Source: Isoetes taiwanensis (lineage: Eukaryota; Streptophyta; Lycopodiopsida; Isoetales; Isoetaceae). Taken from it: a DNA stretch of 64,000 nucleotides. The DNA lies in NCBI GenBank assembly GCA_021234155.1, contig JAJEKV010000303.1:62001-126000 (forward strand), in the 5' to 3' direction. Positions 23,684 to 55,458 of the stretch are shown piece by piece. How positions within the stretch are numbered: position 1 is the stretch's first letter; each line of letters begins with the position of its first letter. Both the position numbers and the translations under genes were made by a program. The notes under the pieces were generated by a model. The model had not been told where the DNA came from. It made no database searches and was given only the letters and a program-made list of their open reading frames with translations.

Positions 23684-23969
23684 TGTGATGTTCCCCACCA
23701 AATATACGACGCCCGGTCGTACATCTCGCGGGAAATCCCCTATTCAACCCTTCGGCCGCATGGGCCCTCTATCTATCCCGCACCCAAGGTATCCCTAGTG
23801 CGGGAAGTGGACATGAAGGTGTCTTGCGCGCCCTTTCCCTATGGGCTCCTATAACAGTGGAAGCATAACATAATCTCAACACTAACAATAACAATACATC
23901 CAACTACCTCGAAGGGTAGCACATCCACACATCCATAGGTACATCAAAGATATGAACATACCATAAAAC
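23684..23969 (-). mobile_element. Element X, right LTR, proximal half
   Basis: This is the second LTR copy, matching 22648-22933, with differences spread throughout. It breaks off at the AAAAC target duplication of element Y (23965-23969). Its continuation is found at 52345-52617 on the opposite strand. Confidence 0.8.
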
Positions 23970-24286
23970 TGTCGAGATATATGATATCAAGATCACCAGC
24001 TTGATACTAGATGTGATTTATCAGCGCTTACAGTACTTATAGCACTCAACACATAAGTGCTGACTAAGCATATCAGAGTCTAGCAACAGCCCACCACTTG
24101 TCATAATTAGCTACGACATAATTAGGAGTGGTTGGTAACGGGAGAAATTAATATTGTCGGCCCTTCTATATATCTTGTATTCTCACATACGTTCAATACA
24201 ATTCCATTTTTGTCTTTATTTTGGGAGTTGCGCTCTTGGATATCAGTGTGCATCCCCTTCTCTCCCTTTCTTGGTGCAACTTGACA
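23970..24286 (+). mobile_element. Copia element Y, 5' LTR
   Basis: A 317-bp LTR begins TGTCGAGATATATGATATC and ends GCAACTTGACA. It matches the 314-bp LTR at 52618-52931 in reverse orientation, at roughly 90% by eye. The 5-bp duplication AAAAC precedes it, and the same AAAAC flanks the far LTR. The LTR contains several copies of TAAGTGCT or its complement. Confidence 0.9.
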
Positions 24287-24298
24287 TGGCATCGAAAG
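24287..24298 (+). other. Element Y primer-binding site
   Basis: TGGCATCGAAAG directly follows the LTR end, where the minus-strand primer site must lie. It is a diverged version of TGGTATCAGAGC, the initiator-Met tRNA complement usual in plant copia elements. Confidence 0.6.
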
Positions 24299-24305
24299 AC
24301 TAGGT

Positions 24306-24945
24306 GTGGCCGAGATTGATTCAAGATCAACACGTAAAGAATGGAGAAGGATGCAAGCTACAACCAGATACCTTCCCCGCAGTCATCCGATTCAAATCTT
24401 TGACGGACAGGTGTTTGAATGGAAAAGCGGAATGATCTTCATTCTCAAGGATGAAGAAGTTTGGGGAATTGTCAATGGCCAAGAACCGCGACCGGATGCC
24501 AAGAATATTGCTGATTTGCATGCTTGACAAAGCCCAGATGACAAGGCAATGGCATATATCGAGGGCCTCTTTAGCCGACTCTATCCTTGATGGGTTCCAA
24601 AGAAGAGAATAGCCACGATTTGTGGCATGCTCATTGAGAAGCATGACCAAAAGACCCATATGATTGGGCATTTGCATGTTGAAGCTGGCCCGAATATGCA
24701 CCGGAAAGAGATTGAGAGTCTTGACCAAGATCGCGATGAAGCACGCTTCCAAAGCCAGATTGAAGCTTTTAAAGAAGAGCATCGATCTCAAAGTTGATGC
24801 AACTAATTTTCTTCCTCAGGTCACTACCTAATGCATTTGATTCTTTGTCGCACTTCATGCAAGACAAAGATATGGGTTTCCATCAAGCAATCACTTCTAT
24901 TAAGGAAGAGATCATGATGAGGCAAGATCTGGTGTAAAGATACTT
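24306..24945 (+). pseudogene. Element Y copia gag fragment
   Basis: The frame from 24306 gives IQIFDGQVFEWKSGMIFILK and DEEVWGIVNGQEPRPDAK, the start of the copia Gag (UBN2-type) domain: FDG..F..WK..M...L....W..V.G. After a stop at 24525 the frame continues with weaker matches, and a shifted frame at about 24800-24935 has LPNAFDSLSHFMQD, the helix that usually follows. The coding region stops at about 24945, where the R array begins, so the rest of gag-pol is missing here. Confidence 0.75.
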
Positions 24946-27608
24946 GTTCGAGAGAGGGAAGTTGCCCGTCCGTCGTGCTGAGGGGCCTTCGGGGAGAGGA
25001 CTTTTGGGGTAAGCCGCCCGGGATTGTTTTTAGGTCCGGTCAAGGCCAACACCCCCCCCTCTACATCAAGACACGGACACGCCGCAAGGTCCTAGTCGAA
25101 CCGACAAGGATAGAGCCTCTCAAACGTAAAGCCTATGAGTTGCCGTGTTCCTAGTGGTGGTTTGCGCTTTGGGTGCGAAGTTTTGGTCTTTTGCACTTGG
25201 GGGGCGGGCCGATCACATGCGCTTGAGAACACGGGCAAGGGGAACCCACGGAATGGAGTTTGGACCTGTACTCCTCCTTGTGGCGCTTAAGTCAAGGGCC
25301 GCTTTTGGCAGAGCAAGACATTCAGAATTAAAGAATTAATGCATAGTACGGACTTAAATTCTGATTTTTTCTCAGCTCCTTCCTAAGTCATCACCAACAT
25401 ACAGGCCAACTTTCAAAAATTTTGGATAGGGTTTAGAAATAGTTTGCATTAGAAACTGGTACTGTTGTTGGGCACCGAAGCTAGGCACACTTGCTCAAGT
25501 CAAACAAGGCGGGACCTTGCAAGGCCTCATTAGAGGGGAGAGTCCCAACCCCGTGAGGCGAGCAGCCCAAAAAGCTCCCCGAGGGCCCCTTTCTCGCTTC
25601 CCGCGGGGGGGCGACGCTAAAGACCACACTCCCGCATCTCGGCTCCCATATCCGACCGTTGAATCCTTTGTTCAAGGAACCCGGGTTCGAGAAGGTCCAA
25701 AAAAATCCAACATCCGTCCGGAGAACATATCAAAACCGAAGCGCCCCGGCGACAATGTAGAAACCAAAGTGTTTTGTCGTTGGACATTATGAGGTTCTAA
25801 ATGGCGATTCGGGACCGGCCATTATCCGAATGCCAAAATTACCCTAGGGACAAAGTTACACGGTCAATTTTGCAAAAGAAAGAAACACTTACAACCTACA
25901 TTGTAAAAGATTCAAGCCAGCCCACCTCCTAGGCCAATTGACTATGAGTGTGTTGCACATGAGATAGTTTACGCTTCTTCGAGAAGGGGGTGGGCTTCTG
26001 GCCACAAAACTTGGTCCCTGGGGCAACATCAACGCTCGAGTCCATTGGTAGAGACTGCATCACAGCCCGGAGAGGGGAAGTTGCTCGCCCACGCTGTGGC
26101 CTTCGAGAGGACTTTTGGGGCAAGCTGCTTCTGGGTGGTTTTAGGGTCCGGTGGCTCAAGGCCAACACCCCCTCTACATCAAGACATCAACAAGGTCCTA
26201 GTCGAACCGACAAGGATAGAGCCCAAATGTAAACCCTATGAGTTGCCGTGTTCTGGCAGTGGTTTGCGCTTTTGGGTGTCGAAGTTTTGGTCTTTGCACT
26301 TGGGACATGGCCCATCACATGCGCTTGAGAACATTTTAAGCAAGGGGACCCGACGGAATGGAGTTTGGACCATACTCCTCCCGCCAGGCGCTTAGAAGTC
26401 AAGGGCCGCTTTTGGCAAGAGCAAGACATTCAAATTGTAATTAATGCATAGTACGGACTTAAATTTGATTTTTATCAGCTAGCTTCCTAAGCCATTGCCA
26501 ACATACAAAGCCAACTTTCAAAAATTTTGGATAAGGTTTAGATCAAATAGTTTGCATTAGAACAACCGGAACTGATGCATTTGGCAGCCGAAATGGGCAC
26601 ACTTGTTTCAAGTCAAACAAGGCCAGGACCTTGCAAGGCCTCCTCATTAGAGGGGAGAGTCCGAACCCCCGTGAGGCGAGCCCCAAAAGCTTCCCCGAGG
26701 CCTTTTCCCGGCAAAGACTCACGGGGCGACGCTAAAGACCACACTCCCGATCTCGGTTCCCCGATCCCAATTTGAATCCCTTTTGTTCAAGGGCCCCGGT
26801 TCGAGAAGGTCCAAAAATCCAACATCCGTCCGGAGAACATATTAAACCTAAAAGCCCCCCAAGGCGACAAAGGTAGAAACCAAAGTGTTTTGTCGCTTGG
26901 ACATTGCGGAGGATGGCGATTCGACCGCCACATCATCGGAATGTCAAAATTACCCTAGGGACCAAATTACACCTGGGCCGGGTTTTGCAAAAGAAAGAAA
27001 CACTTACGCCCTACATTGCAAGATATTCAAGCAGCCCACCTCCTAGGCCAATTGATTCACGAAAGTGTGTTGCACGTGAGATAGTTTGGCGCTTCTTCGA
27101 GAAGGGTGGGCTTCTCGCCACAAAACTTGGTCCCTAGGGCAATGTCGCCGCTCGAAGTCATTGGCAGAGACAGATCACGGTTTTGAAGAGGGAAGGCTGC
27201 CCGTCCGCCGGGGCCTTCGGGAGAGGACTTTTGGGGTAAGCTACTTCCGGGTGGTTTTAGGGTCCGTGCTCAAGGCCAACACCCCTCTACATCAAGACAC
27301 GCCCAAGGTCCTAGTCGAATCGACAAGGATAGAGCCTCCCAAACGAAACCCTATGAGTTGCCGTGTTCCAGCGGGGGTTTGCGTTTTGGGTGCGAAGTTT
27401 TGGTCTTTGCACTTGGGACGTGGCCGATCACATGCTTAAGGGGAACCGACGGAATGGAGTTTGGACCCAGACTCCTCCCATTGTGGCAGTTAGAAGTCAA
27501 GGAACGCTTTGCAGAGGGAAGACATTCAGAATTCAGAATTAATGCATAGTACGGACTTAAATTCTGATTTTTGTCACCTAACTTCCTAAGTCATCGCCAA
27601 CATACAGG
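24946..27608 (+). repeat. R array, about 2.4 tandem units of 1.1 kb
   Basis: Three successive copies carry the same landmarks in order (for example GAGGACTTTTGGGG, CAAGGTCCTAGTCGAA, GCATAGTACGGACTTAAAT, CATCCGTCCGGAGAACATAT, CCTAGGCCAATTGA). Equivalent points are near 24950, 26070 and 27185, giving a period of about 1.115 kb. The third copy ends at 27608. No conserved protein frame runs through the units, and open frames differ between copies. Small indels are common. The same unit occurs in reverse orientation at 53895-55458. Confidence 0.92.
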
Positions 27609-27609
27609 C

Positions 27610-27830
27610 ATGTTGAGATAAACTACATCTTTGCATGTTGGTAAGGTATTAGTTCTCATAGCAGGGGACAAAATTAAAAAAATATATATATATATATGTC
27701 GTCGTAACAAACGAAACTATTGGTGGAAACCCTTTTTAAATCTAACAAAATAAAATTTTAAGATAAACTACATCTTTACATGTTGGTAAGGTATTAGTTA
27801 TCATAGCAGGTAAGGTATTACTAGTTATCA
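27610..27830 (+). repeat. Direct duplication of about 50 bases
   Basis: A unit with GATAAACTACATCTTT, CATGTTGGTAAGGTATTAGT and TCATAGCAGG occurs at 27612 and 27760. Between the copies lie a TA run and GTCGTCGTAACAAACG, which resembles sequence inside the CACTA-like element at 48440. Confidence 0.75.
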
Positions 27831-29437
27831 TCATCGTATTATATACCTCATAGCTCAACGGATGTACCACAAAACATTGAACATTCTCATGGTAGTATAT
27901 TTCATAACTTTGACGGGTGTAACAAGTCAAATAAACCCCTATCCAGTTAAGTAAACCCATGTATCAACTGTACATGCATTCTATACTATAATTTTTTTTT
28001 TCTATTTATTGATAATTATTGGCCTTATAGTTGAGGTTTTATTGAATGTAACATCCGGGTTGTTGGTACTATATCGAGCCAATTTCTAACCAATATAAGC
28101 GGTAGAATAGTGTGGTAAAACCAATGGTCATATGATACTAATACTAGATGTAATTTGAGACCTATTATAGGATAAGCCACCGCATTAAAGAATAGGTAAA
28201 GTGGCGGGCTTAAAATTATGAGCACTCACCAACATTTGAGGCCTTGATGTGGGCCTTTAACCCAAGACTCAATTGAAAGGATATGGCATTTATGGTAGTC
28301 CGGGAGAGCGTTAAAGGTAAATACCTTTGTATAACTATGGGACATGATTCTGATTAGGAAAAGTCTTAGTGCTTGTGGACTGAATGAGCGATACTAAACC
28401 AAGAGTTGGAATGGTGTTCTATGAATTCTGATCAGTGGAGAAATAACACTAATAAAATGAGTCGTGGTAGAGGCTTTGATGCCAAAAGAGCTTTCCATGA
28501 TAATAACAGTGGGGAGTATAGCAAGAGGCCGTCGTCCTTTAACAGGAATAAACAAATGTAACCACAAAAAGTGTGGCACATCTAGTGACTTTGTCCCGAG
28601 ACAATGATTGATCTAATTGTTTGAATATGACAATGACGATTTCCAGGTATTTAGAATAACTAAATAGTTGTAGTAAGGGTTCAACACCTTAAAAAAGAGT
28701 CTTAAGCTGGAAGTAGCCGTAAGCTGATGTAGCTGAATAACGTAAGAAAAAGTAAAGGATTATTTAATATTTATGCTTAGAATGCATGATATAACACTCC
28801 AGTTGGAGAGGGTATGATGTCTACATTGACCGCTTCTAGCCAGCTAGTTCATATCATTAAGATAATCTAGACTGTAACAAATGGTTTAACAGAATGGTTG
28901 CTCATGGTTTTTGGTATCTAATCTTCTTGGAAAACCTATGCTATTGAAGGATACCGAAATATAACTTAGTAGCATGACATTAAATATGAAATGTATCTTA
29001 TTTGATCTTTCAAATGTGCTTAAATGGCATCTTATATCCATTTGACATAGCTCACGATAGTTGAGCAAAGAGCAAAAGTGTACAAAAGGTGAAGGGGCGA
29101 TAGCCGAGAATCACCTTATGTACCTTTTGGCCCTTGCCTTGTTACCAAGATTATTGCTAACATTGGCTTGATTGGCTGCAGTGCGCGTGTGATTCTCCTC
29201 CTTTTTGTATCAGTTTTTTGTCTTTACGCTCCAACTATAGTAAGTCATGGTGGATGAGGATATCTTGAAGAATATGGTTTGCCTCGTGACCAAGTATATG
29301 ATCTTGGTTAAAACCTTTGTCAAAAGAAAGTGATGGTTTGCTGAAAAGTGAGATCAAGTATGAATTATAATATTCGAAAAACGTAGCCAAATGGGGAAGG
29401 TCCTTTTTGTGTATCTTTGTCTTAAGTACATACATAT
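27831..29437. other. No gene seen
   Basis: AT-rich sequence without recognised domains. It ends at the CTTCT duplication (29438-29442) that marks the left edge of element A. Confidence 0.55.
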
Positions 29438-29442
29438 CTTCT

Positions 29443-29972
29443 TGTTGGAAATGACAAAATTATGTGTCATGTGATATTCTAATCTATGAGAAGCAGTGGC
29501 AGTAGATTAGAGTTGTTAAATGGTGTCATGTTATTCAAAGTAATGCAGTTGAATGGGGAAGACCTATGAGAAGCAATGGGCGTGAGGTCAAAGTCAAAGT
29601 CAAAGTCAAAGGTGGCGGGCACACCCCACCCGGATATTCTTGGGCTCGCTAGAAAACACCTAGACCCCTGCCCGCCACACTTAGGTTTTTAGGTTGGTAG
29701 TCAGTCTGGTCAAAGTCAACGGCAACCTGGAAAGATAAGGATGCTAGGCATCCTATTATTTAGGCAAGTTGAAAAACTTTCTATATGAAGGGCATGCACG
29801 ATTTGACAAGTGGATATATCCAGGTTAATAAGAATATAAATAAATGAATGATGTATGAGCGGTGTGTAGATACAAAAGGCAGTGCGTGTATCGACTTTAG
29901 GAGCGGGTGGGTTTGAAGGAGACAGAGTCTTGGCATACTAATGTAGGGAAACCCAAGCTCCTGATTCTAACA
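29443..29972 (+). mobile_element. Element A, 5' LTR (530 bp)
   Basis: It begins TGTTGGAAATGACAAAATT and ends GATTCTAACA. It matches the 3' LTR 45842-46308 plus 47636-47683 and shows the uninterrupted site GGGTTTGAAGGAGAC of the LINE there. It contains GTCAAA repeats at 29585-29610 and 29708-29722 around a GC-rich inverted repeat. Confidence 0.92.
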
Positions 29973-29973
29973 T

Positions 29974-29985
29974 TGGTATCGAGCT
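29974..29985 (+). other. Element A primer-binding site
   Basis: TGGTATCGAGCT lies two bases after the LTR. It differs from TGGTATCAGAGC, present in element B at the same place, by a one-base loss and small changes, consistent with decay. Confidence 0.8.
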
Positions 29986-30000
29986 ATAAGATCAGTAATC

Positions 30001-30880
30001 ATGACAACTAGATTTGGTGCAAATTTGCTGAATACAATTGAAGTTTTTAAAGGGATGGAGGGTTTTCAAACCAAAGGAAAGTATTAGGGCGTGCTTTCGA
30101 GTTTGAAAAGTTATGGTATCTGATTGATGGTAGTGCGGTTGCAAGTGCGGGAACAACTAGTTCGGGGATTCAAACTTCGGCTGCTAGCTCTGTGCCACAT
30201 CACGTCAAGGTGCAGCGTTGTCTCTGCGGGAGGGGAAACCGCTAGCTCGAGGAGACGCAGCCTAAAAAATTATGGAAGCTCAAGCCATAATATGTGCAAG
30301 GTAGGGAGACGCCTTAAAAGTTAAAACCGAGGTATGAAGCCTAAAGATATGTGGGACTATCGATTAAACATTATGAAAAAAAAAGAGTTCCTCACGGATA
30401 GATATGTTGGAAAAGGAGTTAAAGGAAGATGAAACATAAAAAAAGATAACCTAACTAATTTTTTTTAGAAAGGTTTGACTCTATTATTGCAGATCTTGAA
30501 GGTGCTGGAAATATTCCTCGAGGAGGTATCAAATTTTGGCTTTAGCAAGGTCAGTTTCTCATAATAGTCATTTAGCAACTTTGCTTTCGAATGTAGCTAC
30601 TTCTAAGGAACATGCTATCGACCAAATACATAGCGAATTTGACAATCTAATGTTGTACAAGAGGAAGTCGTGGAACAAGCATAGAGTATTATACACTTTG
30701 GTAAGGCTAAGAAGGTTGGTTTTAAAAAATTTCACAAGACAAAGTAGAGGCCTTGCTATTTATGTATCGGTATGGTCATTTGAAGAATGAATGTCCAAGT
30801 AACAAGTTGAAAAAGAATTGAGGTGTTTTAATTGTGAGGGCAAGGGCCATTTCTCTTTCAATTGCTCAAGTCCCTAAAAA
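30001..30880 (+). pseudogene. Element A copia gag
   Basis: It starts MTTRFGANLLNTIEVFKGME, parallel to the gag start of element B. A later block, FDSIIADLEGAGNIP (about 30475), matches the copia Gag helix before the zinc knuckle. The CCHC knuckle is at about 30803-30870 as CFNCEGKGHFSFNC, complete in its Cys and His residues. Several frameshifts and stops separate these parts. Confidence 0.82.
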
Positions 30881-31084
30881 CAGGGAAGAGGTCGTGGTAG
30901 ATCTCGGGGATTCTGAGGGGAAGAGGCGAGGACAAGTTTGGGGGGTTTGCAAGTATCAATATAATGGAGAAGCATGAAAGTAGTGAAGGAGAGATAGAAG
31001 ATGACACCTTTGAGGTCTAAAAAGTGACACACACCTTGGAGGTAATGAAAAAAGCTTAACTTGTAATGTTTCTATAAATCCAAC

Positions 31085-32400
31085 AAGAAATAATAACAAG
31101 TTTGTGGTTATAGATTAGGGAGCAGAGAAAAAGTGTAATGTGTGATATGCACATGTTAAAAATGTGGAAAAGAAAGAAGGTCCACGTTCAGCTTGGTGAT
31201 GGAGGCACGGAAAAATAGAAGACTACGAGTTTTGGAGTTGTTTGATTTGAATGGAAAAACCTGTTATGCTGAAAAGAGGTTTTGTGTGTACCTAGTCTTG
31301 TAAGAAATCTCATATCGCATGTATTCGGTTAGTGGATATGGGATACAAAGTTTTATTTGAACAAATCAATGTAAAAGTATTTACGAATGATGAATTAAAG
31401 TTCATTGGCAAAAGAGTTGGAAACTTGTTTTGGTTTTAATATTGATCATCTTCATGAAGTTAATCTGGTAGAATATCCGGATAAAACTGCGGGCATAACA
31501 AAGGCTATGTCATGTGAATCCTAGCGAATTGAAGCTCTAAAAACAAGGGTATAATATCCGCAAAAAGTAGAAGAAGAAGGAAAACTTTTGTGGTGGGCAT
31601 CGAAGCTGGAAAACAACCAAGATTACCATTCAAAAGGTCAAATAAAAAAGAGCAAAAGGGCATTTTGGATTTGGTACACACGGATCTATGTGGTCCTATA
31701 AATGTTACCCAGTTTAAGTGGACATAAGTATTTTATGACCTTCATAGACGATTTTAGTAAGAAGGACAAAAAGTTATATTTTGAAAACAAAAGATCAAGC
31801 AAGTGAGGCCTTGAAATTATTTATTGCTGAAATCCAGGCTAGAAACTGGAAGGAAAAATTAGTGTATAAGATCGAGGGCAGGGGGTGGTGAGTATATATC
31901 TGATGAATTTAAGTTTTTGTGCAAGGAGAGGAATCAAGAGGCAACTAACTTGTAGATACTCACCACAACAAAATGGAGTAGCTGAAAGGAAGAACAGGAC
32001 CTTACTAAATCTTGTGAGGATCCATGTTAAAATACTCACGGCCTACAAAATTTTCGTGGATGAAGTCAGAAGGCGTGATCTATATTCAAAAATTTGTTAC
32101 CTTCTACAAGCATTAAAGGTGCCATTCGAAAATGCTTTTGGCGGTAAGCTTCCATCTTATGAGCGATTTAAAGCATATGGATGTTTTATGTTTTGTTCAT
32201 GTTCACGAAGAATTAAGAAAGAAATTGGATGATAGGGCATATATAACATATCTTGTAGGATATGATTCAAGCTCAAAAGCATTCGGACTATATGATCGGC
32301 AAAGGAGAAAAATCATAGTTAAGTGGGGATGTTATTTTTATGAGAATGAGTTTTATAGAAGGATTCCCTATGAAACTCAAACTCCATGTGACAAATAAAA
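31085..32400 (+). pseudogene. Element A copia protease and integrase
   Basis: Protease is represented by KFVVID-GAEKK near 31105, where TAG replaces the expected Ser of DSGA. Integrase begins near 31670; GHKYFMTFIDDFSKK (about 31722) carries the first catalytic Asp region. GIKRQLTCRYSPQQNGVAER and KNRTLLNLVR follow (31933-32020), holding the conserved Glu of the DDE triad. Then come FENAFGGKLPSYERFKAYGC and, in the next frame, RAYITYLVGYDSSSKAFGLY, the standard end of the copia integrase region. The reading frame changes several times. Confidence 0.9.
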
Positions 32401-32714
32401 GGAAAGATGTTATTTCCGAAATACAACAAAGAAATAAATAAAGAAGAAGATAAAACTGAAAAACTTGAAGGCATTTAAGTGATTCCGACAAAATGTGGAA
32501 ATTAATTCGAAGGAAGTTGTTGAGTACGAAATGGAACCTGGTATTGAACATCAAGAGTTAGAAGTTGATCATGGTATTAAAACTCAAGAGAAAGCCAAGA
32601 GAATCAAGCTTCGGATTTTGGCGAGGAGGAAGCTAAACATGTTTTAGAATCACATGGGAGAAATGAAAGCTGGAAGAAGCAAAAGACTTCAGGATCTGTT
32701 TGCAGGAGAAATTA

Positions 32715-32884
32715 TTTGATTTGACATTTTGATTTTAGAAAATGATAAAATACCTCAAAATTATGATGAAGCGATTGCATGATTCTCATGAAAAAAAAAG
32801 CGGTTAAGTGCCATGGAAGAAAAGAAATGAGTGCTTTTAAGAGAACAAACACTTATACCGTAGTAGATATGCCATTGAATAAGA
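32715..32884 (+). pseudogene. Element A, start of the RT region
   Basis: NYDEAIA (near 32761), then KEMSAFKRTNTYTVVDMPLN, match the conserved copia segment leading into RT (EEM.AL..N.TW.LV.LP). It is cut at 32884 by the LTR of element B. Element A sequence resumes at about 44773, after a gap of roughly 150 RT residues. Confidence 0.85.
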
Positions 32885-33333
32885 TGTTAAATGGTGTCAT
32901 GTTATTTGGGAGACCTATGAGAAGCAGTGTGATAGGTCAAAGTCAAAGTCAAAGTCAAAAGTGGCGGGCACCCCTACCGGGTGTTCTTGGTCTCGGCTAG
33001 AAACATGAGACACCCCCTTGCCGCCACTTAGGGGTTTCGTTGACCAGTCAAAGTCAAAGTCAACTAGGGCCAAAATTTTAGGAGAGCAAGTCTATCTACT
33101 CCGGATTTTTAGGCAAGTTGGAGAACTTTCCATATGAAGGGAGATGCACAATATGACAAGTGGATGCTTCCAGATTGGAAAGGAAATATGGACATAAATG
33201 TGGGGTGATGGAAAGAGGGGAGAGACTTGCAGGTCGAAATATAGAAGCAGGAGATTGTCTGAGCGCCTGATTGATCTTGTTGTCAGTGTATTGTGTATCA
33301 GTTTATTGAATACATCATCTTCAAATCCTAACA
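32885..33333 (+). mobile_element. Element B, 5' LTR (449 bp)
   Basis: It begins TGTTAAATGGTGTCATG and ends AAATCCTAACA. It is very similar to 44315-44759, the differences being mostly transitions and short indels in G/C runs. GTCAAA arrays lie at 32935-32960 and 33038-33063, flanking an inverted repeat (GTGGCGGGCA at 32961, TGCCGCCAC ending 33027). Confidence 0.93.
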
Positions 33334-33334
33334 G

Positions 33335-33346
33335 TGGTATCAGAGC
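33335..33346 (+). other. Element B primer-binding site
   Basis: TGGTATCAGAGC, one base after the LTR end, is the exact initiator-Met tRNA complement typical of plant copia elements. Confidence 0.92.
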
Positions 33347-33347
33347 C

Positions 33348-34137
33348 ATGTCAAGCAGGTTTGGAGCAGGGTTGTTGAACTCTATTGCAGTGTATGAAGG
33401 GGGACCAGGTTTTCAGATTTGGAAGGAACAAATCAAAAATGTTCTTGAAAATGAAGGGCTCACGGGGAATTAGTTCAAGGAACTAGTTCAAGTGGGGATG
33501 CGATCTGTGGCTGCAAGAAGAAGTTCTACCTGGGGAAAGTCGGTGACCGAAGAGTGCAGTGAAGTAGACTCAAGTAAAAGTGGTAAGGATGAAGTTGTTA
33601 AACCGTGAAGCATATGGTATTTTGACCAGCAAAGTTGGGGCTTCAATTTTTTGAAGATAAGGAAAGTCACCTAGTGATATTTGGAAGTTCCTGCTCAAAA
33701 ACTATGAGGAAAAAACATCATCTCAGATTGATGTTCTTGATAAACACTTAGGATGCTAAGGGTAAAAAGAAGGTGATGACTTACAAAGTTTTTCTCTAAG
33801 TTTGATAACATTGTGGCAGACTTAGAAGGTCTTGGGGTGTATTCTTTGATTGAACAACAAAATTGTTGCATGTGGCAAGAGCGGTTAAGGGAACAAAGCG
33901 ATTTGTCAACTCTTATTAGGAATGTGGCCAAAACCGAGAGGGGCCGAAGAAATGATTGAACGAGTTTGAACAAAAATAAGGTATTGTATGATGATGACAT
34001 TGAAGATAATGTTGAAGTGTTGTATCGAGGTAAGGGCAAAGCAAAGTTTTCAAGAAAAAGTGCTAAAAATAAGAGTGAAATAGGTCCTTGTTTTTCAGCG
34101 CAAAACAAAAGGGCATTTAAAGATAAGTTGTCCTAAA
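33348..34137 (+). pseudogene. Element B copia gag
   Basis: ATG at 33348 opens MSSRFGAGLLNSIAVYEGGP, followed by FQIWKEQIKNVLENEGL, the copia Gag start, and then a stop (33471). Later blocks such as KFDNIVADLEGLGVYS (about 33795) and TLIRNVAKTERGRR match Gag helices in other frames. Its zinc knuckle lies at the start of the next, intact frame. Confidence 0.82.
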
Positions 34138-34968
34138 TTGAAAGAGGTTGAGTGCTTTAACTGTGGAGGCAGAGGTCACTTTGCAAACAAGTGCTCAAGC
34201 AGCAAAATGAATAGAGGCAGACCAAGTAGAGGAAGAAATTATTCTAGAGGTCGAGGAAGAAATCCTGATACCCAAAGGTCTGCTGTAAATTTGGTGCAAG
34301 ATATTGAAGAAGAATCAAGTGAAGAGGATGAAGATGCTGAGGTAAGTAATTATGACATTTTGGTTGTTTCAAAAGAAAAATCTAATAATGATGATGAAAT
34401 GTTAATATTAGATAGTGGAGCAGAAAAATCCGTGACCAGTTCAGCCAAATTATTCAAGGAGGAAAAAGAAGGAAGAATTAAGCATATCAAGTTAGGAAAT
34501 GGGAAGTTACAAGATGTTCAATGCACGGGAATGTTAGAATTGTTTGACCTTCAAGGGAGAGCAGTAAACTTGAAGGATGTTTTGTGTGTACCTTCACTAG
34601 TCAGAAATTTAATTTCTGTTGCACAGTTAGTAGACATGGATTACACTGTTGTTTTTGACAAGTATCAATGTAAAGTGCTTTTGAATAATGAGATCAAATT
34701 TCTTGGAAGAAGATTTGGTAATTTGTTTGCATTGGATAGTGGTTGTTTGCCCTGTGTTAATTCTGTTATGATTCCAGATATGGACACTTGGCATCTGAGG
34801 TTATGTCATGTTAATCATAGCACCATAGATACTATGATTAAACAAAAAATAATCAAAGCAAAAAATGAAGTTGATGAGCCAAGAATCTGCCTAGGTTGCA
34901 TGCTAGGAAAACATGCAAGATTGCCTTTTAAAAGGGCAAAAGAAAAACCAAAGGGGTGTTGGAGCTAG
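34138..34968 (+). CDS. Element B open segment: CCHC knuckle, protease, pre-integrase (276 aa)
   Basis: This is the longest intact retroelement frame in the window. Residues 5-18 are CFNCGGRGHFANKC, a perfect CCHC knuckle. A basic Arg/Gly region (about 20-45) and an acidic linker follow. Residues about 88-100 are MLILDSGAEKSVT with the catalytic Asp of the aspartic protease. LKDVLCVPSLVRNLISVAQL is the usual copia segment after it. The GAG-pre-integrase domain contains DTWHLRLCHVNHSTIDTM and CLGCMLGKHARLPF, the His2Cys2 zinc site. It ends at a stop where integrase should continue. The intact part is a fragment of a Gag-Pol polyprotein. Confidence 0.92.
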   Translation: MKEVECFNCGGRGHFANKCSSSKMNRGRPSRGRNYSRGRGRNPDTQRSAVNLVQDIEEESSEEDEDAEVSNYDILVVSKEKSNNDDEMLILDSGAEKSVTSSAKLFKEEKEGRIKHIKLGNGKLQDVQCTGMLELFDLQGRAVNLKDVLCVPSLVRNLISVAQLVDMDYTVVFDKYQCKVLLNNEIKFLGRRFGNLFALDSGCLPCVNSVMIPDMDTWHLRLCHVNHSTIDTMIKQKIIKAKNEVDEPRICLGCMLGKHARLPFKRAKEKPKGCWS

Positions 34969-35640: not shown

Positions 35641-36004
35641 CAATCTTATAAAAACATAAAGTTTTTCTCTGTTAATCCTAAAAGAAAAGGAAGTTGTAAA
35701 TTGAATCTGAACTTTATTGATGATGATGATGATGAGCAGGATGCCAACAAACTCTCCTCTCAACAAGTTGGTGCAAGAAGGCGCTTGAGATAGTGTGGCG
35801 GATGCCATAGAAAAGAGGTAACACCCAAAGGTGGTAGAAGAAGCGGCAGCTCGGATCTTGCAACAAGAGGCTAATGTTGATCATGAAAGGTTTGGAAGAG
35901 ATAACGTGTAGAAGTAGGAGAATACAAAGTGAAGCAGCAGGTGTAAACCTTATTGAAATCCTTGCCTTCTTTGGATCTTTTGAAAGTACCAAAATCTTAT
36001 AGAG

Positions 36005-44310: not shown

Positions 44311-44314
44311 AAAG

Positions 44315-44772
44315 TGTTAAATGGTGTCATGTTATTTGGGGAGACCTATGAGAAGCGATGGCGATGGGTCAAAGTCAAAGTCAAAGTCAAAAGTGGCGGG
44401 CACCCCCTACCCGGTGTTCTTTGGGCTGCTAGAAACACCACACCCCCCGCCCGCCACTTAAGGTTTGGTTGACCAGTCAATGTCAAAGTCAACTAGGGCG
44501 AAATTTTGGGAGAGCAAGTCTATCTACTCCGGATTTTTAGGCAAGTTGGAGAACTTTTCATATGAAGGGAGATGCACAATATGACAAGTGGATGCACCCA
44601 GATTGGAAAGGAAATATGGACATAAATGTGGGGTGATGGAAAGGGGGAGACTTGCAGGTCGAAATATAGAAGCGGGGAGATTGTCCCGGCGCCTGATTGA
44701 TCTTGTTGTCGGTGTATTGTGTATCGGTTTATTGAATACATCATCTTCAAATTCTAACAGTGGTATCAGAGC
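44315..44772 (+). mobile_element. Element B second LTR (44315-44759) followed by its own primer site
   Basis: The LTR is very similar to 32885-33333 and begins TGTTAAATGGTGTCATG. A 3' LTR should be followed by target DNA; instead TGGTATCAGAGC (44761-44772), a perfect primer site, follows. So this LTR is flanked as a 3' LTR on the left and as a 5' LTR on the right. No 5-bp duplication can be matched between 32880-32884 and the right side. A tandem or recombined copy followed by deletion would explain it. Confidence 0.88.
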
Positions 44773-45377
44773 AAGGTTTTGAAAAGCTCAATTATGATGG
44801 GAATATTTACAGATTTAAAATGGGAAATGACTGGTGCATTATTGCTCTGTATGTTGATGACAACATTATGGTAGCTAATGGAAGCAGAGTACTAAACCAT
44901 TGCAAAGATATTTTGAAAAAGAGATTTCAAATGAGTGACCTTGGAGAACTCAAAAGATTTCTGGGAATTGATGTATACAGGAATAGAAGTCAACGGATAC
45001 TAACTTTGAGTCAACAAGGGCATATTCAAAACATGTTGAAGAAATTTCATATGGAAGATTGCAATATGGCAAATACTCCTATGGTTCCTGGTCATAGAAT
45101 TTCTGCAGATATGAGTCCAAAGACAGAAACAGTAAAAGCAAACAAATGGAGAAAATACCTTCATGTAAGTTTGATTGGTTGTTTGTCCTATGTAGCCAAT
45201 TGTACTAGGCCTGACATTGCATTTGCAGTTAATATTCTCAGTAGGTATAATGACAAGGCTGGTAAAGGACACTGGAATGCAGCAAAAAGGATTCTCAAAT
45301 ACTTGAAAGGTACAATGCATTTTGGTATAGTATTTAATAAAACCAACTTGCAATTGCAGGCTTATTGTGATCTTTGA
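44760..45377 (+). CDS. Element A open segment: RT second half and RNase H start (205 aa)
   Basis: From about 44773 the frame encodes GFEKLNYDGNIYRFKMGNDW, ALYVDDNIMVANGSRVLNHC with the YVDD catalytic box, GELKRFLGIDVYRNRSQRIL, and LIGCLSYVANCTRPDIAFAV, all standard copia RT thumb and connection motifs. It continues into LSRYNDKAGKGHWNAAKRIL and stops at 45375. Compared with element B it is clearly related but a distinct sequence, matching the outer element A. The first codons derive from the primer site, not from a real start. The RT N-terminal half is missing. Confidence 0.9.
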   Translation: MVSEQGFEKLNYDGNIYRFKMGNDWCIIALYVDDNIMVANGSRVLNHCKDILKKRFQMSDLGELKRFLGIDVYRNRSQRILTLSQQGHIQNMLKKFHMEDCNMANTPMVPGHRISADMSPKTETVKANKWRKYLHVSLIGCLSYVANCTRPDIAFAVNILSRYNDKAGKGHWNAAKRILKYLKGTMHFGIVFNKTNLQLQAYCDL

Positions 45378-45841
45378 TTGGGGAGGAGATTTAGATAAAC
45401 TTAAAAATCAACTGAGGGGTATGTTGTTTTATTAGGTGGAGCCCGGTTGCTTGGAAGTGCAAGAAAAAGCAAAGCATTGCTTTTATCTAGTCTTGAATTT
45501 GAATACAACTCGTGACCACATTGACTAAGGAACTTATTTGGGAAAAGAAGGCTTATGGCGAATTTGGATTTGCTCAAAGAGGACCAACAATCATTTATTG
45601 TGATAATACTAGTTGTATTGCCATGACAAAAATCCATTTTGCAACGAAAAGGTCAAAACACATTGAAATGGAAGTTCATTTTATCGAGAGATATGGTCAA
45701 AAGAAATCAAGTGCATTTGACCTATGTTAGTCTGATTGATCAAAGAGCGGATATTCTTACAAAGGCTCTACCTTTATCCATTCGGGGAAATAAGGAAATT
45801 GTTACAATGTGATGACGAGGGGAATATCACATGAAGGGGAA
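45378..45841 (+). pseudogene. Element A RNase H end and polypurine tract
   Basis: QAYCDSDWGG is broken at 45375 by a TGA-producing change. The sequence goes on with STEGYVVLLGGARLLGSARK, the RNase H core in a shifted frame, ATKRSKHIEMEVHFIERYGQ, and finally HLTYVSLIDQRADILTKALP near 45718-45773, the copia C-terminus. A purine tract (GAAGGGGAA) immediately precedes the 3' LTR. Confidence 0.88.
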
Positions 45842-46308
45842 TGTTGGAAATGACAAAATTATGTCATGTGATATTCTAATCTATTAGAAGCAAATGGCGA
45901 TGGAATTAGAGTTGTTAGATGGTGTCATGTTATTCAAAAGTAATGCGATTGAATGGGGAAGACCTATGAGAAGCAATGTGGCGGGAGGTCAAAGTCAAGG
46001 TCAAAGTCAAAAGGTGGCGGGCACACCCTACCCGGATGTTCTTTGGGCTCGCTAGAAACACACAGACACCCCATACCCGCCACTTAGGGTTTTGGGTTGG
46101 TAGTCAGCAGTCAAAGTCAACGGCAATTTGGAAGATAAGGACGTGAGGCATCCCTATTATTTAGGCAAGTTGAAAAACTTTCTATATGAAGGCATGCAAC
46201 GATTTGGAAGTGGATATATCGGGTTAATAAGAATATAAATAAATGAATGATGTATGAAGCGGTGTGTAGATACAGTGCGTGTATGCGGCTTTAGGAGGCG
46301 GGTGGGTT
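45842..46308 (+). mobile_element. Element A, 3' LTR, left part
   Basis: It begins TGTTGGAAATGACAAAATT and matches 29443 onward, including the GTCAAA arrays (45986-46012, 46108-46122) and GC-rich inverted repeat. It is interrupted at GGGTTTGAAGGA by LINE copy B; the last 48 bases of the LTR follow at 47636-47683. Confidence 0.92.
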
Positions 46309-47635
46309 TGAAGGAAGGAAGGAAGGAAGGAAGGAAGTATATTTTAACGCGTCGGTGGCCAAACTTGACCTATGAGAGGCGGTACGCAAATTTTACTGGC
46401 GAGATAAAACCACACCAAAAAGACAAATGCTACTATACAATGTGTCCCTACTGGGGATGAAAAAACCCCCATGGGAGGAAAAACCCGGTAGTAGGTCGCC
46501 GAGGCTCTTGTCCCATAAAGGGATTCTCTAACGGTGAAGACTTGCAAAATGTAGGATGCGAGGCGTGCAACCATTGGCGATCACCGACAATTGATCTTGT
46601 GGTGCCTCGAGCATCTAAGATCGGCATGTGTTGCTCGGATATGCATTATATTGGGACGCTCGCGAGCATGGTGCTCATCCTCTCTTGTCGCATGTGTAGC
46701 CTTACTGGCATATTCTCTCATCTGGGGGATTCTCGCCCTCCTCTGTAGTCCAACGACCTGTTTCAATTGCGAGATGATGGGACCCGTCCTCACGGAGGCA
46801 ATAGCTCTCCGTTTCTTCATAGATATATGAGCTTTCAATGCTTGGTGTGGGCCATGTTCCGGTGTTGGATTAACTGCGTGTGGTAGTGCTTTGTTTAGGC
46901 TTTGCCGCGGCGGTTGCATGAAGTGGTGGCAGCGCTCATTCAGTGCAACTTTTGTCCACGGGCATCGAGGCATAGCCCAATCTGGCTGGTAGTCTATAGA
47001 CCCGTTCGCGAACCACCCACGGCGATTGCTCTGCCATACCCTCTTGATCGTTGTGGCTCTTGTGCCAATAACAAAGCTCTCGGGGAAGGCGTTATTGCAT
47101 CCATCTTTGGTGACCTTGTGGAAATATGCAAGATGTCTGGCGTATAGCGGAATGTTGCGGGGGCGAACCAGTCTCATATAGCAAAATCGATAAGGCACCG
47201 TGTCCTTGATACCTAGGCGTATGTTAAGAAGGCCTTTTGCACCCTCTAGCTTATCCGGTGTTCTTGCTAATAATTGGAGCCGGACCTCTACCCCATACAA
47301 CAATCTTTGGTTCAGCGAGTGCTGCGAGCGAGGTGTGCTCGTGCCTATCCACATAGGTCTATTCTCAGCGGCTATTACGCATAGCATCACGAGGGCTCTC
47401 CATCCATGGCCCGACCCGTCTTTCCACCTGATCATCCCATAACATGCTAAGTTAGCGCAAAAGTGATTCCGGATACTTGAAGGTCCTTACAACATCCACC
47501 TTACGTCCTCACGTAATAGAGATCACGGGATATCATCTTTGAGAGGAGAGAGGGCTGCCGGGGAGCTTAGTTTTCTCGGAGGTTCACCGTCATTCTGTTG
47601 TGTCGAGAACCCACTAAAAGCGTCCAAATGAAGGA
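46309..47635 (-). mobile_element. LINE copy B inserted in the LTR, tetranucleotide tail
   Basis: TGAAGGA at 46309-46315 and 47629-47635 is the target duplication; the 5' LTR of element A shows the empty site (TTTGAAGGAGAC near 29916). On the minus strand the insert runs from 47628 down to a 3' tail of repeated CTTC (GGAA on plus, 46313-46336). It is about 1.3 kb and 5'-truncated. It contains the C-terminal part of ORF2 and a 3' UTR with CCAGTAAAATTTGC and AGGTCAAGTTTGGCC, weakly resembling the 3' UTR of LINE copies A and C. Confidence 0.88.
46581..47435 (-). CDS. LINE ORF2 C-terminal region (284 aa, open)
   Basis: This intact minus-strand frame carries the region downstream of RT in the LINE family. 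Residues 45-51 LLYGVEV correspond to the LYG.E.W motif, residues 74-83 LGIKDTVPYR to the following block, and residues 134-142 WQSNRRGWF to a conserved Trp-rich block. Residues 208-218 KRRAIASVRTG and residues 252-267 EDEHHARERPNIMHIR correspond to the terminal RTG...C..C...EDE.H....CP.Y..IR zinc-knuckle block, but the Cys pairs are not all kept (for example IPQM in place of C..C). RT catalytic domains are absent because of 5' truncation. The start Met is simply the first in frame. It is unlikely to be functional. Confidence 0.82.
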   Translation of the reverse strand: MIRWKDGSGHGWRALVMLCVIAAENRPMWIGTSTPRSQHSLNQRLLYGVEVRLQLLARTPDKLEGAKGLLNIRLGIKDTVPYRFCYMRLVRPRNIPLYARHLAYFHKVTKDGCNNAFPESFVIGTRATTIKRVWQSNRRGWFANGSIDYQPDWAMPRCPWTKVALNERCHHFMQPPRQSLNKALPHAVNPTPEHGPHQALKAHISMKKRRAIASVRTGPIISQLKQVVGLQRRARIPQMREYASKATHATREDEHHARERPNIMHIRATHADLRCSRHHKINCR

Positions 47636-49969: not shown

Positions 49970-52340
49970 AATGTAGCCCTTTTGTAGGCATATCGTATCT
50001 TAGTCCTATATGATACCTGCACCTCGCTTATAATTGGCTTCATGGCCATGCGAGAGTGCTTGGTTATCACCAGATTTGAGTTGTACATATTTATGGGCTC
50101 CAATGTCCCACTTTTGATAGCAGGTCCTATTATGAGATATAATCAAAGTACTGCTCTTGTCAACGACTTTCTTTAAGGTCAAATGCAATGTTGTTGTAGT
50201 TCATAGTCTATGGAAATGCATCAATTGTAGCGACTGTTTAAAATATAGACATTACAAGGCATTAATTCACATGTCCAAGGAATTACCTTTTGTAATTTCT
50301 GTGATATTAAACTGCTAGACTTTAATACAAAGTTGTGGAGCAGTCATGTAGTGATATATGTGGTTCTTTTGATAGGTGATTGGCTTTTCTTTGGAATTAA
50401 CCATTATGCATGATAAAAGGATTCGAATAAGACCATGGTTCCATGTCTAGAAAAGCAAGCAAAATCTGTATGGAGATGAGAATGCCTCAAAGTCAGTCTA
50501 ACAGATGCTCTTACGCATGGACATGGTATCGGTGCCTTGGGCCACTTTTCATTGGAACTTTAGCCTAACGATTCCAACCTTCATGTTGGATCCTTGAATC
50601 ATCTTATTTGAAAACTCGAGAATGCATCTAATGACGCCATTTGAGAGATGTAGATCGACCTAAAAGTTGTTGAACAGAAGCAATTCTAAACACCAGAGCT
50701 TTGAGGACAAAGGAAGCCAATCACACTAGAAATGATTTCTTGCCTCCTCCAAAAAATTATGGAAACAAAGAAGCTACCTAGGAGGCCCTACTTGCAGCTA
50801 GATAATTGCTCATGCAGAACAAGAACAAATATATGTTCTTTCGCTTATCATACCTAGTTTGGTTGGGTGCCTTTGATCAAGTGCAGATGGAGTTCATGAT
50901 AGTCGAACACACCCATCAGCCCCTTGTCTTGGTGCACCTTTCGGTGTCTGTCAGTCATCTCTCTAATTGCGTCTGCCAAATTTAATATTGTACTGTCTTG
51001 TGCCATGAGGATGTGTATCGGGCGGCTCCTTCTTATCCTATTGAATCTGTTTCTTATATCTGTGTATGTTGTGCATCAGTTGAGCATATGGCTCTCATCT
51101 TTAACTTCACCAGTATCGCAAATTCGACATATGCGATCTTCCCTGTTCACCTTCCTCCGACTGCCCTTTTCGATACTTAGATCATGACTTCCCATTATAA
51201 ATCTCGCTATGCAGGGAAAATTTTAAGGGACCTATAATTTTGTATAAGTATAATGAATTGGCCATTCCTTGTAAAATATGCCCCCAAAAGTGTAGCCTGA
51301 ACTGGCCATTTTTCCTATTTTTTTCTAATGTGGCTGCAACCCAATTGGCGATTTTTAAACCAACTATCTAATAATGTGTAGCTCAAATGACAATTTTTAG
51401 CTAGATTCTTATTAAATATAGAGCGAGTTGCCCAAACATAAAGAAGTCGCTACCCTATATAAATGTGTTTTCCATGTATGAATTTGAATTTATACCCCAT
51501 GTATTTCAATAATGCCTGGATCATTTGGTAGGGAGAATCGAAAATGGGATCTTGGGAGTCTTCGTAAAAAGAGGATTGAAAAGTGCCTCGACATTTGATT
51601 TTCCAAAAGAGGAGGATTATTCTTAGTTGGTAGATATATTTAAGAATAAAAATTTCTAATAATGTTGGCCCCCCATAGGTGACAAACTTATGAGGGGGAC
51701 CTCTTAATGAGTTAAGATTTGGCGAACTTAAGGCATTACAGGATTTGGCCAAGTGGCCTAAATGGCCATTCCATAAGCATATCTAGTTCTCACTTGGGAC
51801 TAAATTGGCCCCAAAGTCGATACCACTTCAATTAGCAAACATCTAATTGGCCATTCTAATGTTGTAATAGGCAATAAAGTGCTACGAAATGGCAAATCTA
51901 CAAGTAGTCTGTAGGTAAGGCATCCTACTCAAGCCGGCCGTTGCATTTTGCTTGAACCTGTAATTAGTGGCCAAATGGCCCACGGAAATACTAAAATTTT
52001 ATTTGTCGCTATGATGTCCCTTCTGGTCTTCCCTATTCGGCTGTCTCTGTAGAGTCTTTGGCCTACTGTTAGCTTGGGTTAAATACTTCCAATAACCATG
52101 ATGTTTTTGGGTCGTTGGGTCTTCCTACCCTTGTGTGCATGGTGTTCACTATCCATTCCTCATTCTATTTCCCTTCTTTGAGTATATCACTTAGGTTCAA
52201 ACTTAGATTTTTGGTTCAATGTGCTACATCCCTGAACCAACCTAGACCTGTGGTCATGCGTTGCTTTGCCGATTCTCAGATTGCTATCATGGACAGTTCT
52301 TTGAGGTTTTTGCTGCTATTATCCCTTAGTAAGTATCTAA
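49970..52340. other. No gene seen; TGGCCA-rich segment inside
   Basis: No recognised domain on either strand. The overlapping plus-strand frames at 50924-51187 have no family match. From about 51240 to 51990 the words TTGGCCATT, TGGCCAAA and AATTGGC recur at irregular spacing. Confidence 0.45.
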
Positions 52341-52344: not shown

Positions 52345-52617
52345 TTTAACCCTTCCTACCTCATCGGACCGGGGAGGTGCAACTGGAGTAGCCCCAATGG
52401 GTGATACCATAGGATTACGTCTCCCCAGGTTATAGTCATGCGAGCCCGATTTAGCCTATTTAAAAGTATCCACAGGAGGGGCGGATGGAGTGGTCAACCC
52501 TAGCCATTGTCTATAGCCAGCCCTGCCATTGTTATAATCGATCTGCTCTATCTTGAGGCCCAGTCGTCATTCTACTTCCCTTACGAGTATGAGCCTGGGT
52601 AGAAGCTCTCATGTTTT
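52345..52617 (+). mobile_element. Element X, right LTR, distal half (inverted)
   Basis: Read on the minus strand, this continues the X LTR exactly where 23969 breaks off: AAAAC then ATGAGAGCTTCTACCCAGG, matching 22929 to about 23180. Its orientation is opposite to both other X copies. The match fades beyond 52345. Confidence 0.85.
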
Positions 52618-52931
52618 TGTCAAGATTGCACCAAGAAAGGGAGAGAAGCGGATGCACACCGATATTCGAGAGCGCAAGCTCCCAAACAAAGGCAAAAATG
52701 GAATTGTAATATGTGAGAATACAAGATATATAGAAGGGCAGGCAATATTAATTGCTCCCGTTACCAACCACTTCTAATTATGTCGTAGCTAATTATGACA
52801 AGTGGTGGGTTGTTGCTAGACTCTGATAAGTGCTTAGTCAGCACTTATGTGCTAAGTGCTATAAGTGCTGTAAGTGCTGATACATCACATCTAGCATCAA
52901 GATGGTGATCTTGATATCATATATCTCGACA
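52618..52931 (-). mobile_element. Copia element Y, 3' LTR (inverted)
   Basis: On minus it begins TGTCGAGATATATGATATC and ends TGCAATCTTGACA, matching the 5' LTR 23970-24286. GTTTT at 52613-52617 is AAAAC on minus, the same target duplication as at 23965-23969. A purine tract (CATCAAGGAGGAG on minus, 52932-52944) lies on its inner side, so this is the 3' LTR. Confidence 0.92.
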
Positions 52932-53890
52932 CTCCTCCTTGATGAGAGATCGCCATCTCCATGCTCAGCCTCCTCCTCCTGGAGATAAGATCTAAATTTT
53001 GGTCAAAATGGTCCCTTAACCAGGGTCATCTGAAAAGCTCAAAAATCAAGTTTGCATGAAGAGATCAGACTTATTCTCTCTGATAGGTAAATAGACCTGT
53101 TGATCACCACTATATCAGGAACAGTAAGTCGATAGAGTTTGTCTTTGATATCCATAATTGTTTTACCAAGAGGAACATGAAAATTATTAGGCAAGAGAAG
53201 CATCAGATATGATTATGTCGTTAAGACTTATGGATTCAACAACCATAAATGCAGCTACTCCAACAATGTTAGGTCGAAATTCTTCATGAAAATCAAACCT
53301 TAGTATCTTCGCTTGACCTTGATCAAGTGTTGCTAGAAGTAAAGAGTCAACTGCTCCTCCTTGCTTTGGAATCATGATCATATATGATGCATTTGCAACT
53401 CCTTTACGATTAAGTAAATTAAGATCTCCTCCTTGATCTAGTAATAGAATTGAGTTCAGTGCCATAACAGGTGCTAGAAGTGTTGGAAGTGCTCTAAGTG
53501 CTGGAAGTTTCATAATCCGAACAGAAAAATCAGTTGATCAGGTGTTAGAACCTGAGTGCATCCTTGCATAAATGCTGCCAAAGTATCAGAAATGAATGCC
53601 ACTTGATGAAGTGTTGCTACATTGCCTGAAAATGGGAGAATGAAGGCCACATCAAGATATCCTAGCTCAATGGCTGAGGTATCTATTAATTCTTGTTTGG
53701 AAGGTACTGCAATATCAGAAATTGATATCCATTTATTGGGTGCTACTACATCGTCTGATATCCAGAAAGTAGGATCTAAATGCACTACTTCATGCTTACT
53801 AGGAAGAGATAATCTGCTGCCAATGTGCTTTTCCTCCTCATCATGCTCATCCCCATTCAAGGTAGATTGATTCTTTGAATGCCCTGCTGC
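52932..53890 (-). pseudogene. Element Y 3' interior, coding identity unclear
   Basis: Between the Y 3' LTR and the inverted R array the minus strand has two adjoining open frames, 53510-53860 (116 aa, starting MNGDEHDEEEKHIGSRLSLP) and 53187-53513 (108 aa). They do not show copia RNase H motifs. They could be a derived or captured segment that replaced pol, since gag on the other side is also cut by R sequence. Words like AAGTGCT recur near 53470-53510, as in the LTR. Confidence 0.4.
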
Positions 53891-53894
53891 AAAG

Positions 53895-55458
53895 AGAGTG
53901 GCATGATCGCCAATGGACTCAGAACGTCGACATTGCCTTAGGGACCAAGTTTTGTGGCCAGAAGCCCACCCCTTCTCGAAGAAGCGCCAAACTACTCGTA
54001 GTCAATTGGCCTAGGAGGTAGCAGTTGAATACTGCAATGTAGGGCGTAAGTGTTTCTTTCTTTTGCAAAACTGGCCGTGTAACTTGGTCCCTCGGGTAAT
54101 TTTGGCATTCCGGACGATGTGGCAAAGTCGATTCGCCATTTCAGAGCCTCCGCAATGTCCGAACGACAAAACACTTTGGTTTCTACACCGTCGCCCGCAG
54201 GACGCTTCGCGGTTTGATATGTTCTCCCGGACGGATGTTGGATTTTTTTGGACCTTCTCGAACCAGGGGCCCTTGAATAAAGGATTCAACGGTCGGATAG
54301 GGGAACCGAGATCCAGGAGTGTGGTCTTGGCGCACGCCCCGGGAGGCGATGCCAGGAAAGGCTGCCTCGGGATGTTTCTTGGGGCTCGCCTCACGGGGTT
54401 GGACTCTCCCCTCTAATGAGGAGGCCTTGCAAGGTCCTGGCCTTGTTTGACTTGGGCAAGTGTGCCAGATCAGCTGCCCAACAACAGGCTACCCGGACCG
54501 TTCTAATGCAAACTCTTTGATCTAAACTTTAACCGAAAATTTTGAAAGTTGGCCTTATGTTGGCGATGACTTAGGAAGCCAGCTGATAAAAAATCAGAAT
54601 TTAATTCCGTACTATGCATTAATTACGAATTTACGAATGTCTTGCTACTGTAAAAGCGGCCCTTGACTTCTAACTGCCACAATGGGAGGAATACATGTCC
54701 AAACTCCATTCCGTCAGTTCCCCTTGCTTTTGCGTTCTCAACTGCATGTGATCGGCCACGTCCCAAGTGCAAAAGACCAAAACTCGGCACCCAAAATGCA
54801 AACCCTACTAGAACGTGGCAACTCACAGGGTTTACGTTTCGGAGGCCCTATCCTTGTCAGATTCAACCAGGACCTTGCGCCATGTCTTGATGTAGAGGGG
54901 GGGTGTTGACGCTTGAGCACGGACCCTAAAACCACCCGAGCGGCTTTCCCCAAAAGTTCTCTCCGGAAGGCCCCGGGCGACGGGCGGGCAACTTCCCAAC
55001 TCGAACCGTGATGCGTCTCTCGCCAATGGACTCGAGAACATCGAAATTGTCCTAGGGACTAAGTTTTGTGGCAGAAGCCCACCCCCCTTCGAAGAAGCCA
55101 AACTATCTCATGTGCAACATATACCGTAGTCAATTGGCCTAGGAGGTGGCTGCTGAATACTGCAATGTAGGGCGTAAGTGTTTCTTTCTTTTGCAAAATT
55201 GACCGTGTAACTTGGTCCTTAGGGTAATTTTGACATTCAAACGATGTGGAAGTCGAATTGCCATTTCGAGACCTCGCAATGGCGAGCGACAAAACACTTT
55301 GGTTTCTACTTTCGTCGCCCTTGGGACGCTTGTGGTTTGATAAGTTCTCCCGGACGGATGTTGGATTTTTTTTGGACCTTCTCGAACCAGGGCCCTTGAA
55401 CAAAGGATTCAACAGTCGGATAGGGGAACCGAGATCCGGGAGTGTGGTCTTTAGCGTA
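53895..55458 (-). repeat. R array, about 1.4 units, inverted
   Basis: The same 1.1-kb unit as 24946-27608, on the opposite strand. The landmark GCCAATGGACTC occurs near 53909 and 55022, a period of about 1.113 kb. It ends at about 55458, after AGTGTGGTCTTTAGCGT. The inner edge abuts the Y 3' interior. Confidence 0.92.

Follow-up and report, generated by a model that had tools for sequence, protein, structure and literature searches.

A decayed LTR retrotransposon with an internal repeat array, apparently cut in two by an inversion of about 28 kb in Isoetes taiwanensis

The window, i.e. the whole stretch of 64,000 nucleotides of Isoetes taiwanensis DNA that was analysed, is repeat-rich eukaryotic DNA without N. 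By comparing it with itself and by reading it directly, we find two blocks of a decayed element, Y, which lie about 28 kb apart and face each other, as the preliminary description of this DNA had claimed. Three inverted pairs in the self-comparison tie the blocks together, namely sequence of the host element X, the LTR of Y, and a repeat, R, that forms an array in either block (Table 1).

Table 1. Coordinates in the window of the two Y blocks, of the host element X, of the R units and of the putative inversion.
Feature	Position	Strand	Remarks
X1 (X 3' LTR)	22648..23204	-	TG..CA ends on the minus strand; matches X2; uninterrupted Y target AAAAC at 22929-22933
X interior, short	23205..23683	-	purine tract at one end, PBS-like site at the other
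X2 (X 5' LTR), part left of Y	23684..23969	-	ends in AAAAC; 91.6% to 22647-22933
X2, remaining part, in inverted position	52348..52617	+	minus-strand reading from 52617 starts with AAAAC; 85.8% to 22929-23202
Left Y half	23970-27609	+	LTR, gag-like pieces, R repeats
Y 5' LTR	23970-24286	+	pairs with the 3' LTR
Y 5' interior	24287..24945	+	decayed gag-like reading frames
Left R array	24946-27609	+	units of 1123 and 1117 bp and a 424-bp part
Unit A1	24946-26068	+	
Unit A2	26069-27185	+	
Unit A3, partial	27186-27609	+	cut at phase about 461
Right Y half	55467-52618	-	R repeats, 3' interior, purine tract, LTR
Right R array	53912..55467	-	about 1.4 units
Unit B1, partial	about 55457-55467 to 55007	-	starts at phase about 669
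Unit B2	55006-53912	-	ends at phase 1101 of 1123
Y 3' interior	52932..53911	-	two open pieces of 134 and 116 aa; purine tract before the LTR
Y 3' LTR	52618-52931	-	pairs with the 5' LTR
Inverted pair, X	22929-23202 with 52617-52348	inverted	self-comparison
Inverted pair, Y LTR	23970-24286 with 52931-52618	inverted	self-comparison
Inverted pair, R	24946-27609 with 55457-53909	inverted	self-comparison
Putative inverted segment	27610..55467	.	about 27.9 kb
Left inversion junction	27609..27610	.	R similarity stops
Right inversion junction	55467..55468	.	R stops; position uncertain by several bases
Near copy, 56 bp	27610..27665	+	of 27755-27810, 93%, K2P 0.075 ± 0.038; starts at the junction

The host of the insertion, X, is a small LTR element on the minus strand. 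A purine tract (GGGAAGGGGAGA) precedes its 3' LTR, X1, and at the other end of its interior a PBS-like site (23671-23682) lies one base from the 5' LTR, X2, with two mismatches to the motif that we take to be the primer-binding motif of plant tRNAiMet. As five sites in the window lie within two mismatches of this motif, what supports the one in X is where it lies, one base away from the LTR. The five bases directly outside X mismatch, and only a shifted reading, made by eye, gives a near match (ACCAT/ACTAT). A third, partial piece of the X LTR is found on the minus strand at 61250-61341; its similarity to X1 stops at the X LTR end, give or take a few bases, and it shares with X2 a further short stretch past the LTR end, which was seen by eye and which BLAST did not report.

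The element Y itself fits an LTR retrotransposon, with paired LTRs that have TG..CA ends and are 91.0% identical over 321 columns (E 3e-121), with a 5-bp target duplication, AAAAC, on both outer sides, and with a polypurine tract (AAGGAGGAG) directly before the TGTCGAG of the 3' LTR. At 24287, after the 5' LTR, there is no match within two mismatches of the tRNAiMet motif, which is the only tRNA motif that was tried. Of six pieces scanned, one in the 5' interior (24773-24934) matches Retrotran_gag_2 (PF14223) with E 0.02 and 14.8 bits against a cut-off of 27. The two open pieces of the 3' interior gave no family above its cut-off (DUF7465 reached E 0.27 for the 134-aa piece), and none of 11 candidates was a homologue of most of the 134-aa piece (53513-53893) at E 0.001. 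A pol domain, sought as integrase and RVT_2, was found in none of the nine frame translations (24287-25000 and 24950-27610 on the plus strand, 52932-54001 on the minus strand; 0 families), a scan that did not take in the right R array beyond 54001. The label copia, under which Y had first been described, has the sub-threshold PF14223 match as its basis, and integrase followed by RVT_2, as expected of Ty1/copia, is absent from the scanned frames. Judging from the sequence, we consider Y likely to be a copia element, in which case it would be non-autonomous, as no pol domain was found.

Two further elements, A and B, are copia elements with SH3, Pol_BBD, gag_pre-integrs and RVT_2 domains, and for a gag-pol piece of B one homologue was found among 468 candidates (E 9.9e-8). 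At 44315-44790 a perfect match to the PBS motif named above (44761-44772) comes after the right-hand LTR of B, with RT coding directly after it. Since a PBS does not normally come after a 3' LTR, the nest of A and B may itself be rearranged. Two RVT_2 matches about 8 kb apart, at 36123-36440 and 44748-45086, cover complementary parts of the profile (16-121 and 133-243); one lies in B, the other where the right-hand LTR of B ends and beyond. A LINE had also been placed in the inverted segment. This is neither confirmed nor disproved, as the frames scanned from 27.6 to 52.3 kb, where the scan took in 27610-36450 and 44300-46320 on the plus strand only and did not take in 29443-29919 and 46001-46319, yielded no LINE domain at E 0.01. 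A match to DUF7869 extends over two plus frames at 50720-50919 (E 5e-7, and E 4e-5 below its cut-off), and this stretch is a decayed gene or transposon piece within the inverted segment. Outside the segment, a decayed Gypsy-type element lies on the plus strand at 8000-13000, with aspartyl protease, RVT_1, RNase H and Integrase_H2C2 spread over three frames.

How the two Y blocks relate to each other can be read from their flanks. The 5' LTR of Y abuts X-LTR sequence that runs to 23969 and has AAAAC at its end, and beyond the 3' LTR the X sequence resumes on the minus strand at 52617, again with AAAAC, so that both junctions are as they had been reported. The proposal that X1 represents the empty site is borne out as well, since the flanks, joined with a single AAAAC, show no gap at the join when aligned to X1; in the self-comparison they overlap on X1 by exactly 5 bp (22929-22933). 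The blocks are complementary, with the 5' LTR and the gag-like pieces on the left only and the purine tract and the 3' LTR on the right only, and R is the sole sequence in the self-comparison that is common to both interiors. Based on the empty-site alignment and the AAAAC overlap, the two blocks are best read as the halves of one insertion, and the LTR pair, the 5-bp duplication and the empty site together establish that Y inserted a single time into the X LTR.

The two R arrays indeed have opposite orientation (82% over 1611 columns for the inverted match of 25614-27165 to 55457-53909, for example). They had been described as sitting at the inner edges of the halves; this has to be corrected, as they lie inside Y, between its LTRs. 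Once the inversion is undone, both have the same orientation within one Y, and the phases at which they are cut, 461 and 669, together with the end of B2 at phase 1101 of 1123, fit an array of four units in which the third is broken and lacks about 200 bp, or the same with whole units lost in addition, a phase gap this small being expected by chance in about 1 of 5 cases (208/1123). The partial unit B1 is nearest to B2 (K2P 0.127, versus 0.231 to A1 and 0.197 to A2), as expected of neighbours, and a query of one unit found in the window the two arrays and otherwise short matches at chance level (14-22 bases, E 0.21 or more). The arrays hence look like pieces of one internal array, inverted by the flip; their opposite orientation would most simply be a consequence of the flip, since they run in the same direction once it is undone, the phases fit, B1 is nearest to B2 and no R is found elsewhere in the window.

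One exact 31-base pattern of R had no match in viral contigs and none in prokaryote genomes, and one unit had no match in plasmids by distant blastn. Rfam gave no match at gathering level in the window and a single match of E 0.88 in 22600-27700. Hairpins in R as a cause of breaks were rejected, since shuffled sequences fold just as well as the eight segments that cover A2 (z -0.78 to 0.45). The variation in R shows clustering, with a variance/mean of 1.7-2.5 and 2.1-3.6 gaps per 100 bp; that of the A LTR pair, which is not tandem, is no less clustered (2.7; 3.0 gaps per 100 bp), and that of the Y LTRs is not significantly clustered (1.0 gap per 100 bp). Poor base calling may play a part in the variation in R, but the idea was dropped, given that the non-tandem A LTR pair shows the same pattern.

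Dating by the divergence of the Y LTRs, which had been proposed as a check, gives a K2P of 0.086 ± 0.018, with differences in 34 of 320 columns (10.6%). The corresponding values are 0.091 and 0.146 for the X parts, 0.140 for the A LTRs and 0.072 for the B LTRs; neither X value is below that of Y, as must be the case if Y is nested in X. Divergence from X1 is unequal in the two parts of X2 (24/284 versus 35/270 sites, Fisher p 0.098), weakly hinting at different histories of the two parts. Between R units, K2P ranges from 0.127 to 0.231 and thus lies above the Y LTR value. All five comparisons between the halves (0.158-0.231) exceed it, with at most 0.5% of bootstrap replicates reaching it, and the comparison of B1 with B2 within the right half exceeds it less clearly (5.4% of bootstrap replicates). 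No stretch of 200 columns in the comparisons between the halves is less than 14.5% different, gaps counted, and a comparison of full-length units across the two arrays gives differences at 15-18% of sites. If rates were equal, most of the array divergence would predate this insertion of Y and, as R diverges more between the halves than the Y LTRs do, no long piece of R would have been duplicated by the inversion. This argues against both an inverted duplication and a staggered-break duplication of R, and the divergence test rejects the two for any R stretch that reaches about 200 bp; likewise, down to a length of about 200 bp, no inverted duplicate of R was found that is no older than the inversion, the mark of staggered breaks. 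The inversion postdates the insertion of Y.

At the left junction, the 56-bp near copy is a candidate for filler DNA, i.e. a repair scar. It may also be an older and unrelated repeat, and the filler reading is weakened because the stretch holds other short repeats. No repeat was found around the right junction (55467/55468). The abrupt stop of R at both junctions, the about 200 bp missing from a unit and the 56-bp duplicate at one end fit a simple end joining of two breaks. About 550 bp past the right junction, at 56016-56268, a 126-bp unit is present in two tandem copies that are 91% alike. Two other inverted pairs in the self-comparison span the region, both off the breakpoints (18293-18502 with 62684-62475, 70% over 213 columns, and 23109-23200 with 61341-61250, 80% over 92 columns).

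The gap-free empty-site alignment, the complementary halves and the lack of a post-insertion duplicate in the R overlap support the reading that a single Y insertion was cut in two by an inversion. From our point of view, it is fairly likely that this came about by two breaks, one of them in the array of Y, which were rejoined in reverse, perhaps with the 56-bp filler. In this reading, a decayed LTR element with an internal array of about four R units of 1.1 kb inserted once into the X LTR; two double-strand breaks would have occurred later, one in the R array and the other about 28 kb away in DNA without R; and end joining would have repaired them with the segment facing the other way. The break would have cost about 200 bp of one R unit, or this and whole units, a copy of nearby sequence would perhaps have been added at the other end, and the inverted R arrays and LTRs now present at the ends would be by-products of the flip.

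In the preliminary description, the split had been ascribed to recombination between inverted R arrays. The inversion as such is supported, given the empty site and the complementary halves, but the recombination is not supported in the form proposed, as in the un-inverted order both arrays have the same orientation, and only with a further R array at the far breakpoint would there have been an inverted pair to recombine. One could imagine such a second array, in opposite orientation, with which the array of Y underwent non-allelic homologous recombination so that the present arrays are hybrids. This would account for R at both ends in opposite orientation, and by our own arithmetic the same total of about 3.8 units would result if the second array had measured about 0.8 unit, or this and any number of whole units; moreover, exact inverted matches of up to 54 bp persist between the arrays. 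It would, however, require an additional array of which the window holds no independent sign, turn the small phase gap into a coincidence (about 1 in 5), and have to accommodate full-length units that differ by 15-18%, above the divergence of the Y LTRs, and we thus regard it as rather unlikely.

An assembly error, in which the chromosome holds Y whole and the assembler placed the segment backwards, had been raised as well, and repeat-rich plant DNA is prone to misassembly according to the part of PMC2773423 available to us. This concern is weakened, since the un-flipped order that we deduce would confront an assembler with an inverted R pair only if a hidden R array existed. The assembler would also have had to misjoin twice, each time within unbroken sequence; the window is without N, the joins show neither a gap nor a long repeat of near identity, and the longest exact inverted match between the present blocks measures 54 bp. 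In our view, an assembler flip is quite improbable. Even less credible, and to us very improbable, is that the composite of X and Y was duplicated in inverted orientation and then lost complementary halves, or that two separate Y copies entered the same X site. The unequal divergence of the X2 parts (p 0.098) would fit such separate histories, but the losses would have to be exactly complementary, and a post-insertion duplicate would share R at or below the LTR divergence, which none of the five comparisons between the halves does. For two independent insertions, the chance of hitting the same base in the same orientation is near 1 in 1100 by our own estimate (2 x 557), if targets are uniform.

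Overall, the locus looks like a well-preserved case of ordinary genome rearrangement and not like an assembly mistake. It illustrates that a nested insertion together with its target duplication can reveal a small inversion, and date it relatively, without a second genome. It further illustrates that an inversion may itself give rise to the inverted repeats found at its ends, and need not have been caused by them, which calls for caution where recombination or an assembler error is deduced from nothing but inverted repeats.

Inversions linked to mobile elements, by recombination or by breakage, are reported in the accessible portions of PMC2603318, PMC12368964 and PMC6861252. The retrotransposon-associated inversions between human and chimpanzee, as summarized in PMC2603318, resemble the present case in having mobile-element sequence at the junctions, through recombination or breakage of elements; they differ in that here a single element is split, with its own internal array at both ends, and host and elements are unrelated. 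The end-joining inversions of Drosophila, of the cut-and-paste or the staggered-break type, share with it the two breaks rejoined in reverse, but the staggered type, as outlined in the text seen of PMC6861252, leaves a duplicated fragment at both breakpoints, whereas no R duplicate of about 200 bp or longer is present here. Filler DNA at sites of break repair in plants is, according to the excerpt of PMC7156093 at hand, more often copied from the same molecule, and the copy of nearby sequence at the left junction, a candidate only, would be alike. With regard to the array, Ogre/Tat and Retand elements (PMC7004042; PMC11963269) carry, like Y, a tandem array inside an LTR element. In the passages of these two papers that we could draw on they are Gypsy elements whose array is part of the 3' UTR or separates pol from the 3' LTR, whereas Y has a weak copia-type gag match, no pol domain that was found, and its array after the gag-like part; its unit of about 1.1 kb compares with 32-660 bp in the satellites that PMC7004042 treats there. 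One could speculate, although we hold this to be unlikely, that Y belongs to an LTR lineage which has lost pol and in its place carries a multi-kb array of 1.1-kb units right after gag, that this array is copied whole by retrotransposition, as is suggested by the units being more diverged than the LTRs, and that such arrays act as break sites which seed local inversions. As a whole, the case is of a known kind, element-linked inversions and tandem arrays within LTR elements both having been described already; the features worth a look are the break within the element's own array and the array of 1.1-kb units after the gag-like part.
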